The notes under the pieces are model-generated. The model made no database searches. It was given only the letters and a program-made list of their open reading frames with translations, and was not told the DNA's origin. Shown one piece after another: positions 41,102 to 58,846 of a DNA stretch of 64,000 bases; the first letter of the stretch is position 1, and every line of letters starts with the position of its first letter. This DNA comes from Tessaracoccus sp. MC1679 (GTDB lineage: Bacteria > Actinomycetota > Actinomycetes > Propionibacteriales > Propionibacteriaceae): NCBI RefSeq assembly GCF_014164775.1, contig NZ_JACJGB010000003.1, positions 310,001 through 374,000 of the forward strand, written 5' to 3'. A program made the translations under genes and the position numbers.

Positions 41102-41905
41102 ATGCGCATCGCACGTTTCGTCAAGGATGGCCAGGACCCCACCTACGGGATCATCGAACTCGCTGTTGACGGGGGAGATCACCCCGACACCATCGCCGCG
41201 TTGACCAACGATCCCCTCGCGGGGCTCGCGGTCAACTACACAGGGGAGCGCCACGACCTCGTCGACGTGCGCCTGCTCGCGCCGGTCATCCCGCGCAGCA
41301 AGATCGTCGGGGTGGGCAAGAACTACGCGGACCACGCCAAGGAGATGGGCGGCGAGGTGCCCGAATCGCCGCTGCTGTTCTTCAAGCCCAACACCTCCGT
41401 GATCGGGCCCGACGACACCATCATCCGCCCCGCGGGCTGCGAGAACCTCCACTTCGAGGGCGAGCTGGCGATCGTGATCGGGCGGATCTGCAAAGAGGTG
41501 CCCGCCGAGCGCGTGCCGGAGGTCATCTTCGGCTACACCATCGCCAACGACGTCACCGCGCGGGACTGGCAGGCCACCGATGGTCAGTGGGCCCGGGCGA
41601 AGGGTTCGGACACGTTCCTCCCGCTCGGCCCCTGGGTCAACACGCACCTCACCGTCGAGGAGGCCGAACACCTCACCATCGAGACCCGCCTCGGCGACGA
41701 GGTGCGCCAGCAGGGCTCCACAGCGCAGATGGTGCGTGGCATCGTCGAGCTCGTCAGCTACATCACGTCGTTCACCACGCTCCTTCCGGGCGACCTGATC
41801 CTCACCGGCACGCCGGCCGGCGTGGGTTCGATGGAGCCGGGAGACCGGGTCAGCGTGGAGATCGACGGCCTGGGCGTGCTGAGCAACCCCGTCGCGGACG
41901 CGTGA
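41102..41905 (+). CDS. Fumarylacetoacetate hydrolase-family protein
   Basis: 267 residues. FAH fold: VGVGKNYADHAKEMG, metal ligands in FEGELAIVIG and YTIANDVTARDWQ, and ILTGTPAGVGSMEPGD. Family members hydrolyse or isomerise 2-oxo acids; this clade is often linked to oxaloacetate or acylpyruvate metabolism. Exact substrate unknown. GTGA overlap with the next gene. Confidence 0.9.
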   Translation: MRIARFVKDGQDPTYGIIELAVDGGDHPDTIAALTNDPLAGLAVNYTGERHDLVDVRLLAPVIPRSKIVGVGKNYADHAKEMGGEVPESPLLFFKPNTSVIGPDDTIIRPAGCENLHFEGELAIVIGRICKEVPAERVPEVIFGYTIANDVTARDWQATDGQWARAKGSDTFLPLGPWVNTHLTVEEAEHLTIETRLGDEVRQQGSTAQMVRGIVELVSYITSFTTLLPGDLILTGTPAGVGSMEPGDRVSVEIDGLGVLSNPVADA

Positions 41906-42828
41906 CCCAGCCCCCGCTGCTGTTGCTGGCCGGCGAGCCGCAGGACCCGCCGTCGGGATTGAGCTACCCGCTGGCGCTGCGGCGCCGGGGATTCACGGTC
42001 CCGATCACAGTGTTTGGTGCGCTGCTCGCGTTCAGCGCGTTCGCGCTGGTGGTGCCTGCTGTGTCCGCCGTCGTGCTTCGCCTGGGCTTCCTGCTGCGGG
42101 GCGGTGGGGACTACGCGGCCTACGAGCGGGCGGCCACGGCGTATGAGCTGCCGGAGGGACCGGCTGCCGGTCACCTGGCGTTGGCTGCGCTCATCCCCTT
42201 GTCGATCCTGCTGGTGCGCTACGTCCACGGCGTGCGGCCCCGCTGGCTGGCCTCGGTCCAGCCAGGACTCAGATGGCGGTATCTCGCGATGTCGCTGGTG
42301 GTGGCGGCGGTGATCCTCAACGCGTTCACGTGGGCCTCGTTCCTCGTGGGAGACATGCCGGTCTTTCACGACGGCCAGGACGGCTGGGTGTGGTTCCTGC
42401 TGGTGGTGGCGATCACCTCGCCGCTGCAGGCGGCGGCGGAAGAGGTGTTCTTCCGGGGCTACCTGCTGCAGGTGATCGGGTCGGCCACCGGCCGGACCTG
42501 GGCGGGCGTCGTCGGATCCGCACTGATCTTCGCGCTGCTGCACGGGGTGCAGAGCCCGGCGCTGTTCGCGCACCGGCTGGCGTTCGGTCTGGTGGCGGGG
42601 GCGTTGGTGGTGGTCACCGGGGGTCTGGAGGCGGGGATCGCGGCCCACGTGGTCAACAATGTCGCGGCGTACGGGTACGCGATGTTCACCATGTCGGTGG
42701 CGGAGTTGCGCGGCGTGACCACCATCACGTGGGCTGAGGCGGGCTGGAATGTCGCGGCGTTCGCGGCGTTCGGTGTCGCGGCGTGGTGGTTGGGGCGTCG
42801 GCTGCGAGTCGCCACCGTCACCCCTTGA
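41902..42828 (+). CDS. CPBP-family intramembrane metalloprotease
   Basis: 308 residues, about eight hydrophobic segments. CPBP/Abi motifs: AAEEVFFRGYLL (Glu-Glu), FALLHGVQSP and HVVNNVAAYG. GTG 41902 overlaps the previous stop. Its own stop lies in the first unit of a 19-bp tandem repeat. Substrate unknown. Confidence 0.88.
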   Translation: MTQPPLLLLAGEPQDPPSGLSYPLALRRRGFTVPITVFGALLAFSAFALVVPAVSAVVLRLGFLLRGGGDYAAYERAATAYELPEGPAAGHLALAALIPLSILLVRYVHGVRPRWLASVQPGLRWRYLAMSLVVAAVILNAFTWASFLVGDMPVFHDGQDGWVWFLLVVAITSPLQAAAEEVFFRGYLLQVIGSATGRTWAGVVGSALIFALLHGVQSPALFAHRLAFGLVAGALVVVTGGLEAGIAAHVVNNVAAYGYAMFTMSVAELRGVTTITWAEAGWNVAAFAAFGVAAWWLGRRLRVATVTP

Positions 42829-42910
42829 CGCCACTGTCACCCCTTGGCGCCACGGTCGCCCCCTGACGCAACGGTCGCCCCTTGACGCCGCCGTCGCCCC
42901 TGACGCCGCC
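42817..42910 (+). repeat. Five-unit 18-19 bp tandem repeat
   Basis: Units like GTCACCCCTTGACGCCACT, each degenerated slightly. The first provides the TGA stop of the CPBP protease. No other function seen. Confidence 0.8.
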
Positions 42911-42965
42911 GTCGCGGTGGCCGGCGCCTCCTTGCAGATGTGGCTTGTGGCTGGGCTGGTGGCGA

Positions 42966-43048
42966 GTTGAGCAAATGGCACGGGTCACGGCGCCGCCCGC
43001 GCTCAGCCTGAGCGTGCGGGGTTCCGTGACCCCTGCCATTTGCTCAAC
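42966..43048. repeat. Palindromic element A flanking the DUF559 gene
   Basis: Arms 42966-42990 and 43024-43048 match at 24 of 25 positions and begin GTTGAGCAAATGGCA. The interior (42991-43023) folds further (GCTCAGC/CTGAGC), so the whole 83 bp can form one long hairpin. It lies 43 nt beyond the DUF559 stop codon. The same 15-bp tip and GCTGAGCGTG-like core occur in element B on the other side of the gene. Confidence 0.9.
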
Positions 43049-43091
43049 GCAAGAGCCGGGGAGCGCGTCGCCCCGAGACGGACGCGCGCTA

Positions 43092-43928
43092 TCAGGTGGA
43101 CCGCAGAGCGATCAGACTCAGGGTGGTCTCAACGAGCGTCGGGAGGCTCTTCTCCGTGAAGTGGACCACGAGCCAGCCCGCCTTGATCAGGGCGATGTCG
43201 CGAAGACGGTCGGCGTGGAAGGCGTCCTGAGAGCTGTGGAAGGCGTAGCCGTCGAACTCCAACGCGATCTTCTTCTCGCGGAACCCGGCATCGACGTAGT
43301 ACTTCCGCCCGCCAACGAAGACGGGCAGATTTGACCGCCATCCCGTGATGCCGGCGCCGCGTAGCGCGGCGTGCGCTGACAACTCAAGTGGGGACCAGGG
43401 CGAGTCTGCAGATTGTGCGAGGAGATCGCGTCTGAGCTTGTTGCCGCGACGGTGGGGGGTCAGTGACAGCGCGTGCTTCATCTGTTTCAGGGTGCACGCC
43501 CGACGTCGGAGTGCCTCCTGGATTGGCTCCGCTTCCAGATCGGGTATGAGATCCAGAACCGTCAGCGCCGGCACGGTGCACAGAACGCCGTCACGTCGCG
43601 TCAGGAGATCAACGGGGATGAGCCGTTGTTCCATGCGAAGACCGTAGCCCGGGGTGATGGCCCGAGCACAGGCGACCTCCAATGAACCCTCCTGCTCGAT
43701 CTCCGGCCAGAACGTGAGTGCGGCGGCGCTTCGCCCGACGACGACCATGTCGTCGCCATATGCCTTGATTGCCCGCAGCCGACCCTCCGTCGTCTCGCCG
43801 GCCCCGGGACGGCCGTAGACGCCCGGAAGCAGACGCTCGAGCTGACCGCGGAAGGCGTAGGAGTTCAGCGCGCGAGCCTTGCGCGGGGCGAGGCGTGCGG
43901 TCACGACGCCGTCGCTCAGAGACCTCAT
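43092..43928 (-). CDS. DUF559 nuclease-like protein with AbiEi-type N-terminal domain
   Basis: 278 residues from ATG 43928 (GTG 43943 is an alternative). Residues 1-60 (LSDGVVTARLAPRKARALNS, LLPGVYGRPGA) look like the wHTH found in AbiEi-type antitoxins. The middle resembles an AbiEi C-terminal-like body. The last ~110 residues are DUF559, a PD-(D/E)XK/Vsr-type fold: YVDAGFREKKIALEFDGYAF gives the Asp...Glu-X-Asp arrangement and DRLRDIALIKAGWLVVHFTE the end. Homologues are common and variable in actinobacteria; role unknown. The gene is bracketed by palindromes A and B with the same tip sequence. Confidence 0.82.
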   Translation of the reverse strand: MRSLSDGVVTARLAPRKARALNSYAFRGQLERLLPGVYGRPGAGETTEGRLRAIKAYGDDMVVVGRSAAALTFWPEIEQEGSLEVACARAITPGYGLRMEQRLIPVDLLTRRDGVLCTVPALTVLDLIPDLEAEPIQEALRRRACTLKQMKHALSLTPHRRGNKLRRDLLAQSADSPWSPLELSAHAALRGAGITGWRSNLPVFVGGRKYYVDAGFREKKIALEFDGYAFHSSQDAFHADRLRDIALIKAGWLVVHFTEKSLPTLVETTLSLIALRST

Positions 43929-44040
43929 CACATCGGGATCCACGCCCCAAGTCTGTGCACTGCGACCCTCGCAGCCAAGGGGCGAGCGCCGGCCTGTGGA
44001 TAACTCGTCGAGCCGTGGAGGGGGTCCTCGGGAGAGGTAG

Positions 44041-44141
44041 GGGGAGGGAGTTGAGCAAATGGCAGGGTTCGCGGTGCGGGCCACGCGTGGGCTGAGCGTG
44101 GAGGTCCTCGCGATCCTTGCCATTTGCTCAACTCCCTCCCC
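44041..44141. repeat. Palindromic element B flanking the DUF559 gene
   Basis: Arms 44041-44067 and 44115-44141 (GGGGAGGGAGTTGAGCAAAT continuing to GGCA) match at nearly every position over 27 bp. The interior contains CCACGC/GCGTGG pairs. It shares GTTGAGCAAATGGCA and its complement with element A, 1 kb away, and lies about 110 bp upstream of the DUF559 start. Confidence 0.9.
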
Positions 44142-44194
44142 GGTGGGGGACATGAGCCTCCCCAGAGTCACAGGTGACTGGGCACAGCGGCGAG

Positions 44195-44392
44195 GGGCCG
44201 CCGGGGCGGCCACGGGAGCCGGGGGTGGGGCGGCCGGGTCGGCCACGGAGCCGGTAACCCAGCGGCCGGGGGGTGGAACGGCCGGGGGTGGGGCGACCGG
44301 GGGTGGGGCGACCGGGGGGGCGACCGGGGGTGGAGCGGCCGGGGGTGGGGCGACCGGAGGCGGAGCGACGGGGGGGGGGGGAGTCGGTTTGC
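44195..44392 (+). repeat. G-rich low-complexity tract
   Basis: Short degenerate repeats of GGGGTGGGGCGACC type, ending in a long G run near 44368-44380. Multiple G-tracts of three or more on the + strand could form quadruplexes. No gene seen. It separates the DUF559 locus from the tRNA genes. Confidence 0.8.
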
Positions 44393-44448
44393 GGGGCGCC
44401 GAAGCCCTGGTGTAGGGTTCATCTTCGTGCCCGGGTGACCGGGCGCAC

Positions 44449-44520
44449 AGGGGTATGGGGTAATTGGCAGCCCGCCGGATTCTGGTTCCGTCAGTCTAGG
44501 TTCGAGTCCTAGTACCCCTG
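44449..44520 (+). tRNA. tRNA-Gln (anticodon CUG)
   Basis: 72 nt. Acceptor AGGGGTA pairs with TACCCCT; anticodon loop TTCTGGT reads CUG; T-arm CTAGGTTCGAGTCCTAG is intact. CCA is not encoded. Confidence 0.93.
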
Positions 44521-44548
44521 CGGAAGGTGTTAAACTCCTTCTCGCTAG

Positions 44549-44621
44549 GGCCCCGTTGTGTAGCGGCCTAGCACGCCGCCCTCTCAAGGCGGTAGCGCGG
44601 GTTCGAATCCCGTCGGGGCTA
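44549..44621 (+). tRNA. tRNA-Glu (anticodon CUC)
   Basis: 73 nt. Anticodon stem CCGCC/GGCGG with loop CTCTCAA (CUC); T-arm GCGGGTTCGAATCCCGT; acceptor GGCCCCG pairs with CGGGGCT, first pair G:U. 28 nt after tRNA-Gln, so probably co-transcribed. Confidence 0.93.
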
Positions 44622-44630
44622 CGAGTTGAA

Positions 44631-44663
44631 TCCCTTGCCGGAGAGATCCGGCAAGGGATTTTT
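44631..44663 (+). terminator. Intrinsic terminator after tRNA-Glu
   Basis: TCCCTTGCCGGA, loop GAGA, TCCGGCAAGGGA, then TTTTT. Perfect 12-bp stem. Confidence 0.93.
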
Positions 44664-44748
44664 CCGTGTCCGGCCCATCGCGGGACCCGCCCAGCTCCTT
44701 CCGGGTATGCCTGGCGACTGCCGCTGTGGCGCTGTCCGACTCCTGCCC

Positions 44749-45636
44749 TCAGTCGCGGCCTCGGGTCGCTGCCGTCGTCGGCTCACGGGGCGCAAGAGCA
44801 GGGCTCTGGATGCACAGGGAAGCCTGGCGCGCCGCGGCCAGGAGGCAGATGTCGACGGGGGATCCCGCCAGGTGGGCGGCAAGGAACCCTGCGAAGAAGG
44901 CATCTCCGGCGCCGTTGGTGTCCACCACCTCCTCGACGGGGAGGGCCTGGACGTGCCTGAGCACCCCGTCGGTCGCCATCGCGATCGCTCCGGCCGCGCC
45001 GCGGGTCACCACTGCCAGCTGGGCGCCGCCGCTGATGCGGTCGGCGACGAAACCAGCAGGATCCGGCAGGGCGTCGTCGTTGCAGAAGACGAAGGAGGCC
45101 TCGTGGACGAACTGCTGGTGCCACGGTGAGGTGCCGTCGTAGTCGTGCAGGTCGCACCAGACTGGGCGGCCCAGCTCGCGCGCCTGGCTCAGGAGCGCTC
45201 GGCCGGGGTCCGACAGGTCGATCACTACGGCGTCGGCGGACTGCATCGACCGGCGCGCTTCATCTGCCAAGCGGACGTCGGCCACCTCCAGCGTGGGCGC
45301 GCGCAGGTACAGCGACACCCGCCCACCAATGGGGTTCATCAGGTTGAGGTGCTGTTCGGTGATCCGGTTCGAGGCCTCCTCGGCGAGCACGTCGATGCCG
45401 GACTCGCGGAGCGCCATCAACACCTGTCGCCCCTCGGGGTCATCACCCACCACCGTCCGCAGAGTCACGTCGACCCCGAGAGAGCGCAGATTGAGCGCCT
45501 TCCCGGCGGACGTCCCGCCCAGGGCCCATCGGTGCGAGCGCGCGAACGCCATGTGCGAAACGGGCTGCGGCAGCGCGTCCAGCATGACGATCTGGTTCCA
45601 CGACGCCGGTCCCGCGACGAACACGTGACCGGACAT
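44749..45636 (-). CDS. PfkB-family carbohydrate kinase
   Basis: 295 residues. Sugar site WALGGTSAGKALNLRSLGVD, catalytic region VVDTNGAGDAFFAGFLAA. Ribokinase-like sugar kinase of unknown substrate. ATG 45636 lies five nt after the IclR stop; a GTG at 45642 would overlap it. Likely co-transcribed with the IclR gene. Confidence 0.88.
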   Translation of the reverse strand: MSGHVFVAGPASWNQIVMLDALPQPVSHMAFARSHRWALGGTSAGKALNLRSLGVDVTLRTVVGDDPEGRQVLMALRESGIDVLAEEASNRITEQHLNLMNPIGGRVSLYLRAPTLEVADVRLADEARRSMQSADAVVIDLSDPGRALLSQARELGRPVWCDLHDYDGTSPWHQQFVHEASFVFCNDDALPDPAGFVADRISGGAQLAVVTRGAAGAIAMATDGVLRHVQALPVEEVVDTNGAGDAFFAGFLAAHLAGSPVDICLLAAARQASLCIQSPALAPREPTTAATRGRD

Positions 45637-52510: not shown

Positions 52511-52586
52511 GGCACGACACGCCGATCGAGTCCACCCCCGTACCCCTATGCGTCCACGTGAGTGGGCTTCGACGGCGTGTCGTGCC
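52511..52586. repeat. Inverted repeat with 48-bp loop
   Basis: Arms GGCACGACACGCCG (52511-52524) and CGGCGTGTCGTGCC (52573-52586), 14 bp perfect. Between DUF427 and the yeiH remnant. Could be a terminator-like hairpin or a recombination trace; no T-run. Confidence 0.75.
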
Positions 52587-55282: not shown

Positions 55283-55687
55283 GGAGGGTCGCCCGCGGAG
55301 CGGCGTGGCCCGTCCCCCGGTCCCTGAGGAGGGTCGCCCGCGGAGCGGCGTGGCCCGTCTCGAAGGGTCGTGGCTCGCGCCCTGGAGTGAGACTGCTTGT
55401 CAGGTTGGGTTACGACCCTTCGAGACGCCACGCGCCTTCGGCGGTGGGGCCCTCAGGGAGCGATAAGCGACGCCCACGCGCCTCCGGCGGTGGGGCCCGT
55501 CCCCCGGTCCCTGAGGAGGGTCGCCCGCGGAGCGGCGTGGCCCGTCTCGAAGGGTCGTGGCTCGCGCCCTGGAGCGAGACTGCTTGTCAGGTTGGGTTAC
55601 GACCCTTCGAGACGCCACGCGCCTTCGGCGGTGGGGCCCTCAGGGAGCGATAAGCGACGCCCACGTGCCTTCGGCGGTGGGGCCCTC
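55269..55687. repeat. Tandem palindromic repeat, about 2.2 units of 187 bp
   Basis: A partial copy (55269-55313) then full units 55314-55500 and 55501-55687, near identical. Within each, GTCTCGAAGGGTCGT and ACGACCCTTCGAGAC (55357-55371/55412-55426; 55544-55558/55599-55613) form a perfect 15-bp inverted repeat that extends outward. Fills the 403 bp between two convergent genes and supplies both stop codons. Confidence 0.93.
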
Positions 55688-58307: not shown

Positions 58308-58407
58308 CACAGCCCGCTCTTGTCAATACCCGCGGGCGGGATCGTCTGCGGCCAGGCCGGCGCGCGCTTCAGGGCCCGCCGCCGGCTGCGCGAGCAATCC
58401 GGCCCCG

Positions 58408-58455
58408 CTAAATGTCAGACTCAGAGTCGTACTCGACACTCAGCCTGACATTTAG
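58408..58455. repeat. Palindromic element with CTAAATGTCAG arms
   Basis: Arms CTAAATGTCAG (58408-58418) and CTGACATTTAG (58445-58455), 11 bp perfect, with further pairing inside (GTCG...CGAC). The stop codon of the SDR remnant (58452-58454) is inside the right arm. Only copy in this window. Confidence 0.85.
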
Positions 58456-58846
58456 AGGGTGATGCCGGTGAAGCGGGCCAGCTCGTCGAGGAGCCGGCGT
58501 TGGAAGTCTTCGTCGTGGACCGCGGGGTGCGCCGTGGCAAGGCGTTGGTGGTGCCAGTAGCCGCCGGTGCTGCTGGCTCGGGGGTCGTCGCTGGTGGCGA
58601 GCCACTCCTGGGTGAGGTGTCCCAGGCGCAGGTCATCGGGGGCCGAGGGCCCGCCCATCCTGGTGGGCACCCATCCGGGGTCGACGGCGTTGGTGGTGGT
58701 GTGGGGCCACAGGCGGGCCACGGCCATCGCGAGTGTGGTGACCAGCAGCTTGCTGTCGGAGTAGTTACCGGCGCGGGTGCCCGCCCAGTCGATGTGCGCG
58801 AGGTCCGGCCGGCCGATCCGGTGACAAAGATGCGCACGTCAATCAA
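58452..58846 (-). pseudogene. Short-chain dehydrogenase pseudogene with internal deletion
   Basis: The minus strand starts RIFVTGSAG, the SDR cofactor-binding start, then jumps in another frame to NYSDSKLLVTTLAMAVARLW and AVDPGWVPTRMGG, the SDR C-terminal third (YxxxK-like YSDSK). About 100-150 residues are missing between and the frame shifts. A shorter ORF over the C-terminal part (from 58727) is not a complete protein. Confidence 0.82.

Follow-up and report, generated by a model that had tools for sequence, protein, structure and literature searches.

Described systems and the present locus

The closest described parallel to the locus considered here is the REPIN–RAYT system, in which a gene is flanked by palindromes and further cognate palindromes are scattered through intergenic DNA in the form of inverted doublets; some genomes hold more than one set of gene and palindromes, inheritance at the species level is mostly vertical, and gene and palindromes co-evolve, in so far as the accessible parts of the source papers describe these points (PMC3116915, PMC2817692). 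Also relevant are the EDxHD homing endonuclease I-Bth0305I, the AbiE type IV toxin–antitoxin systems, and MITEs. No description of a link between DUF559/AbiEi nucleases and palindromes was found in the open-access literature, among the matches listed and at the level of titles and abstract openings.

We have analysed a stretch of 64,000 nucleotides (the window) from the 3.57-Mb genome of Tessaracoccus sp. MC1679 (G000). In the window and in relatives (47 of 127 homologous loci at a score of 20 or more in the test described below), two cognate palindromes flank a nuclease gene, as in REPIN–RAYT, and cognate palindromes are again dispersed between genes as inverted doublets. The presence of several sets in some genomes, the mostly vertical inheritance and the co-evolution of gene and palindromes are further likenesses, to the extent that the available portions of the REPIN–RAYT papers permit the comparison. 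There are also differences. The enzyme is AbiEi- plus EDxHD/Vsr-like and is not a Y1/HuH transposase; there is no constant GTAG/GTGG head among the copies of G000 and its relative G019, taken with 30-nt flanks; 14 copies are found here and 27 were seen in T. massiliensis, as against the usual >100 of REPIN–RAYT; the units here are mostly 66–90 bp; and a TTRTCCACA box lies inside the cassette in 49 of 95 Propionibacteriaceae loci. As no Y1/HuH enzyme, the component by which REPIN–RAYT is defined, was found, the nuclease–palindrome system does not belong to that class.

The likeness to I-Bth0305I lies in the catalytic-domain fold and a profile match (see below), but the window gene is not in an intron or intein; it stands alone between palindromes, is linked to dispersed palindromes, and its product has an N-terminal AbiEi-like domain. 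That domain resembles AbiEi of the AbiE systems, from which the locus differs in that no AbiEii toxin gene lies beside the nuclease gene (window neighbours only) and in that the protein carries a nuclease domain. The palindromes themselves are short, dispersed and non-coding, with inverted ends, as are MITEs. In contrast to MITEs, no parental element encoding a known transposase domain was seen for them (44 nuclease homologues scanned), no target duplication was seen at the one site where it could be sought by eye (L043), and their tips at fixed sites change largely together.

Two palindromes and the gene between them

The initial annotation of this DNA had placed two related palindromes around a nuclease-like gene with an AbiEi-like N-terminus and a DUF559 C-terminus. 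Both palindromes were found where it had put them (Table 1), and its domain assignment is supported by Pfam, PADLOC and structural comparison.

Table 1. Features of the nuclease locus (positions in the window)
Feature	Position	Strand	Remarks
Open frame with Rce1-like CAAX protease gene	41587..42828	+	One border of the cassette locus
83-bp palindrome, stop-codon side of nuclease gene	42966..43048		Tips GTTGAGCAAATGGCA / TGCCATTTGCTCAAC
Nuclease gene	43092..43928	-	278 aa; AbiEi-like N-terminal residues 1–174, nuclease domain about 176–278
TTATCCACA	43995..44003	-	Between start-side palindrome and nuclease gene
83-bp palindrome, start-codon side of nuclease gene	44050..44132		Repeat search, fold scores, CM match
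Start-side palindrome including outer G-rich/C-rich arms GGGGAGGGA / TCCCTCCCC	44041..44141
tRNA-Gln and tRNA-Glu	44449..44622	+	Opposite border of the cassette locus; landmark in the presence/absence comparison

The stop codon lies 43 nt from the stop-side palindrome, and the start codon 121 nt from the start-side palindrome (112 nt counting the outer arm). Exact copies of GTTGAGCAAATGGCA form the four arms and occur nowhere else in the window, with one three-mismatch match at 2576; the five matches with up to three mismatches compare with 0.79 expected, and none of 100 shuffles reached five. The fold z-scores of the two palindromes are -9.2 and -8.0 relative to dinucleotide shuffles, and the stop-side palindrome matches the covariance model (CM) at 6.9e-21, being itself among the sequences used to build it. 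The tip sits within a longer half-site, which in the 83-bp class is TTGAGCAAATGGCANGGNTCRCGG. Outer arms resembling those in Table 1 were recognized by eye at many G000 and G019 copies.

The gene neighbours in the window are the CAAX protease (Pfam match at residues 268–359 of an open frame whose start codon is not settled), an FAA hydrolase, a PfkB kinase and the tRNAs. Tandem repeats of ~19 bp (CGCCACNGTCRCCCCTTGA) occupy 42810–42915, between the protease stop codon and the stop-side palindrome, and G-rich tandem repeats of ~15 bp occupy 44254–44392, between the start-side palindrome and tRNA-Gln; the latter were not seen in the cassette-less spacers of G156, G134 and G001.

TTRTCCACA, which we take to be a DnaA-box sequence (in the window TTATCCACA), is found on either strand within 330 bp upstream of the gene at 27 of 45 loci in the genus and 22 of 50 in the family, mostly 55–135 bp from the start codon, and downstream at one genus locus and no family locus; the background is 12 in 619,479 bp. 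None of 29 phylum loci has it upstream. The upstream count owes something to shared ancestry of the upstream regions.

The nuclease protein

Pfam matches the window protein with MTES_1575 (9.3e-6), DUF559 (4.7e-4; 20.4 bits against a cut-off of 20.6) and AbiEi_3_N (0.075), and the PADLOC AbiEi models match it at 1.2e-6 at best. In a predicted model of the 278-residue protein (mean pLDDT 93.4), residues 1–174 align with AbiEi 6y8q with a VIA Z of 11.3 and an rmsd of 5.1 over 158 residues. The AbiEi assignment rests more firmly on this modelled structure and on PADLOC than on Pfam. The C-terminal domain aligns with the catalytic domain of I-Bth0305I (Z 12.3, rmsd 2.5 over 94 residues), with Vsr (Z 10.3) and with the Tn7 nuclease TnsA (Z 8.0, near the background level named by the tool), and an EDxHD homing endonuclease profile matches the protein at 4e-4. 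As judged from the predicted model, the C-terminal domain is an EDxHD/Vsr-like PD-(D/E)XK (DUF559/MTES_1575) fold; the list of folds obtained cannot rule out folds absent from it.

When 44 homologues were aligned, E182, D213 and E224 were among ten invariant positions. A Pfam scan found MTES_1575 in 43 of these proteins and DUF559 in 41; at 0.01 the scan returned MTES_1575, DUF559 and AbiEi_4 only, with no Y1/HuH, DDE or serine transposase. Homologues occur in 26 of 39 genus genomes at 1e-20, in 60 of 80 other family genomes at 1e-25 and in 50 of 296 phylum genomes at 1e-20. With the window protein as the sole query at 1e-5, matches were found in only two of 72,556 plasmids and none of 50,697 phages.

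Palindromes around homologous genes

For each homologous locus, the two 330-bp flanks of the gene, one before and one after it and including 45 bp of gene sequence, were compared with each other, with a threshold score of 20 or more. The 127 loci comprise the best-scoring ones from the searches together with hand-picked ones and are not a random sample; the locus of the window itself (L168 and L216) was excluded, as was L170, a G023 locus duplicating L143. The partial genes L190, L214 and L215 were kept in this test and left out of the TTRTCCACA count and the 54-locus test below.

Matching elements lie on both sides of the gene at 47 of the 127 loci, all in Actinobacteriota: 23 of 48 in the genus, 11 of 50 in other genera of the family and 13 of 29 elsewhere in the phylum. 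Pairs of mismatched flanks reached the threshold in two of 1550 cases, both of which paired loci of one palindrome type, and other genes (600–1200 bp, from the fetched genus loci only) in two of 250. One of the two passing genes, found blind, is itself a DUF559 plus AbiEi_4 gene (G019 C4, L103:6948-7754); the other is a biotin-synthase-like gene that lies between T. massiliensis palindromes and adjoins a cassette. A chance coincidence of a general repeat with the nuclease gene was rejected, since the gene control, for the genus loci, and the mismatched-flank control argue against it. The association of gene and palindrome across the gene family is strong, within what can be judged from sequence alone. 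The initial annotation had suggested a link of the kind that joins RAYT transposases to REP palindromes, and the comparison bears this link out: many homologues in other species are bracketed by their own palindromes and have cognate copies dispersed, and ordinary genes at the same genus loci lack the bracket (apart from the two in 250 above). It had held that the idea would fail if DUF559 homologues consistently lacked palindromes; they do not, yet 80 of the 127 loci fall under the threshold.

The bracketing elements match across one gene and differ between lineages (TTGAGCAAATGGCA, CGTGAGCAATTGGAT, TTGAGCAGATGGCACCA, AAACTTCACAATCCGTACG, CGGTTGCGCAGCACTCAACCCG and others), and many stop-side elements begin no more than about 25 nt from the stop codon. 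Over the 54 loci with a bracket score of 18 or more, similarity of the elements tracks identity of the proteins (Mantel rho 0.21, matched by 0 of 999 permutations). A crude test, in which each of the 54 start-side elements was set against 20 shuffles of itself, ranked only 30 of them above every shuffle as palindromes; some of the brackets beyond the genus are therefore weak palindromes.

Dispersed copies

A CM search found 14 copies of the palindrome in G000 (28 matches counting both strands). Together with 15 copies in G019 they make 29 distinct copies of 83 or 82 bp, in which the tips are almost invariant and the interiors variable. To judge from the aligned copies, conservation is mainly of the half-site sequence and the added covariation is modest: out of 500 shuffles of the 83-bp family, 20 attain the observed value for the covariation score, 54 for the share of paired cells, six for the number of pairs with changes on both sides, 104 for cells with such changes and 465 for the number of pair types. 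By simple gene calls, three of the 29 overlap a called gene; the copies are found between gene pairs of every orientation, at least six of the 29 between divergent genes.

A scan of genome contigs with degenerate tip pairs gave 62 stretches: 25 (27 copies) in T. massiliensis, 15 in MAG24 (G019), 16 in MAG 3_bin.31 (G023), two in a Propionibacterium MAG and four in Hymenobacter and Planctomycetota, which look like unrelated repeats. A model match in G046 was also set aside, being a GC-rich stretch without tips. When 28 bracketing elements were compared by BLAST with 24 genomes, copies away from the cognate gene were found in at least 13 of 22 genomes with a bracket; these are, among the matches listed, G001, G003, G004, G010, G022, G043, G076, G094, G183, G185, G186, G261 and G375, with at least 11 such copies in each of G003, G076 and G010 and at least six in G094. 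G002, G005 and G123 carry copies and have no nuclease homologue at 1e-20. The initial annotation had counted palindromes without a DUF559 neighbour against its own proposal. Taken literally this holds for 12 of the 14 own-genome copies, but it is as expected of a RAYT-like system.

The palindromes do not correspond to a known RNA family: an Rfam search of 42000–45000 returned tRNAs alone above the cut-off, and weak miRNA matches, far below theirs, are hairpin look-alikes. Integron attC sites were also considered and rejected; the 7-bp ends of the palindromes are like the core sites of what we presume to be the attC motif, but their order is reversed and the first base is G or T.

Changes at copies and tips between species

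An orthologous G019 copy is present at 13 of the 14 G000 sites; L017, which lacks one, was left out of the pairwise comparison. Over the 13 pairs, the tips are identical at 325 of 338 positions and the interiors at 550 of 680. Site L020, at which the G019 tip is of a different type, contributes six of the 13 tip differences. The interiors fall into two groups, seven being 89–96% identical, like their flanks, and six only 60–75% despite flanks that are 81–94% identical.

All 14 G000 copies have GCAAAT on both arms. The exceptions in G019 are GCACAT on both arms of L103, GCAAAG on one arm of L104, and GCAATT in two C76 copies and one C92 copy, while in G023 all 16 arms of the eight copies examined have GCAATT. 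Five of the G023 copies (L139, L160, L166 and both bracket copies of L143) were matched to G000/G019 sites by both flanks, and L133, L163 and L165 mainly through one. Between species, tips at orthologous sites change largely in concert. At site L020, three different tips are found in G000, G019 and G023; that of G019 is the tip of its second nuclease bracket and that of G023 the tip of the bracket at its C70 gene, and the site is empty in G022, G003 and G123.

The interior of the stop-side bracket copy of G019 is 0.91 identical to that of the G019 start-side copy and 0.92 to that of the G000 start-side copy, as against 33 of 53 positions shared with its own ortholog. This copy was, most simply, replaced in place, although it is a single case and the direction is inferred. 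Site L043, with a copy in G019 and none in G000, G023 or G022, is the sole clean lineage-specific gain seen; losses elsewhere could account for it, and by eye this one clean filled/empty site has no target duplication. Where empty sites were compared for L037 and L039, and for the L181, L189, L204, L205, L206 and L049 cassettes, the flanks had diverged or other DNA was present.

The cassette locus

The order FAA hydrolase, CAAX protease, cassette, tRNA-Gln, tRNA-Glu is common to G000, G019, G023, G022 and G003, the nuclease gene being flipped in G003, and the cassettes of these five species have four different tips. In G156, G134 and G001 the cassette is absent, and about 64–97 bp separate the protease match from tRNA-Gln. 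Because the same locus is occupied in five species with four tips, the cassette is mainly inherited in place. The nuclease gene itself is mostly inherited vertically. The suggestion that the palindromes are the borders of a small mobile cassette has only partial support: at one orthologous locus some species have the cassette and others lack it, but five species retain it there.

A proposed two-part system and its alternatives

We think it probable that gene and palindromes form a two-part system that works like REPIN–RAYT with an unrelated enzyme, although there are no data on binding, cleavage or movement. One part would be the gene for an AbiEi-like DNA-binding domain joined to an EDxHD/Vsr-fold nuclease, held between two copies of the 80-bp palindrome; the other would consist of palindromes scattered over the genome that share these tips (14 in G000, 27 seen in T. 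massiliensis). We infer with rather good confidence, again in the absence of binding or cleavage data, that the nuclease works on the palindromes in trans. It would bind the palindrome tips and cut the palindrome, possibly while this is extruded as a hairpin; with another copy as template, repair would rewrite old copies and may occasionally seed a new one. The homing-endonuclease fold, the concerted change of tips and the replacement in place make palindrome cutting and repair from other copies the most likely inference as to how the system works, yet break-repair copying can be put forward as the mechanism only tentatively. What sequence comparison by itself establishes is the bracket, the dispersal, a lineage-specific match of gene and tip, a largely joint change of tips and some replacement in place, together with one lineage-specific filled site and the presence or absence of the whole cassette at one locus.

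The palindrome–gene–palindrome unit might instead be compact and insertion-sequence-like, moving whole by cut and paste, with the dispersed palindromes as its miniature derivatives. Stop-side palindromes often start some 25 nt or less from the stop codon, as the ends of compact insertion sequences do, and the presence or absence of the cassette at the tRNA-Gln locus, its flipped state in G003 and the related fold of TnsA (Z 8.0, though near background) would also fit. Recombination between the two palindromes could, however, flip the gene without transposition; the occupation of one locus in five species with four tips points to inheritance mainly in place, 13 of the 14 own-genome sites are common to G019, and no target duplication was seen. 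We consider such a unit unlikely.

AbiEi proteins bind inverted repeats at their own promoters, and the palindromes could accordingly be operators through which the AbiEi-like domain represses its own gene and a small regulon, the nuclease part having another role. The AbiEi-like N-terminus, the palindrome upstream of the gene and a half-site nearly invariant, as for a DNA-binding protein, are compatible with this; we nevertheless regard it as very unlikely, given the second palindrome at the 3' end of the gene and dispersed copies between divergent, convergent and codirectional genes alike, and since operators have no need for differing tips at one old site, copy swaps in place or empty sites. 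A third alternative, that the palindromes simply serve as bidirectional transcription terminators or RNA hairpins and adjoin the gene by chance, seems to us highly unlikely. They are strong hairpins, mostly intergenic and often right after a stop codon, but at least six of 29 (by simple gene calls) lie between divergent genes, a tip that hardly varies is not required of a terminator, and the bracket is associated with the nuclease family far above other genes.

Returning to the two-part system, a wider reading, speculative at present and perhaps wrong, is that Actinobacteriota hold an undescribed, phylum-wide class of palindrome–nuclease systems convergent with REPIN–RAYT, in which AbiEi–EDxHD nucleases rewrite cognate copies in place through homing-like break repair. 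The nucleases would recognize species-specific tips and rewrite the copies, so that tip and enzyme change together, and several nuclease/palindrome sets in one genome would compete for the same intergenic sites. If a two-part system is confirmed, a chromosomal nuclease would have come to live with a small palindrome population for a second time, independently in evolution, and the questions asked of REPIN–RAYT (persistence of sets, co-evolution of enzyme and repeat, benefit to the host) would become testable by comparison. DUF559 has no assigned function in Pfam, and for a large group of such proteins a likely partner would be at hand, together with a role that can be put to the test. As the tips change jointly between species, they would provide a natural record of specificity switching that helps to decode how the protein reads DNA.

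Further palindromes

The DUF559 plus AbiEi_4 gene at L103:6948-7754 is bracketed by unrelated palindromes (CTGCAGGAATCTACC...). A second own-genome DUF559/AbiEi_4 gene (G000 C16, about 222 kb) has related TCTGCAACRTGCTA palindromes on both sides (L028:778-851 and 1737-1788), with a flank score of 17. In T. massiliensis C15 (about 129.6–133.7 kb; L081:1062-5190), four palindromes lie within 4.2 kb, two of them bracketing the nuclease gene and two further on, with the biotin-synthase-like gene between these and the cassette.

Elsewhere in the window, two near-identical 72-bp palindromes (CGTCTCGAAGGGTCGTGG...) lie 187 bp apart at 55356–55427 and 55543–55614, and another palindrome lies at 58404–58459; these possibly represent other palindrome families. 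The arms of a palindrome at 52511–52586 contain CGACACGCCG. The motif CGACACGCC also occurs within the bracketing elements of 10 of the 54 nuclease loci, whose tips otherwise mostly differ, the background over these loci being 42 in 506 kb, and is perhaps a second conserved core.
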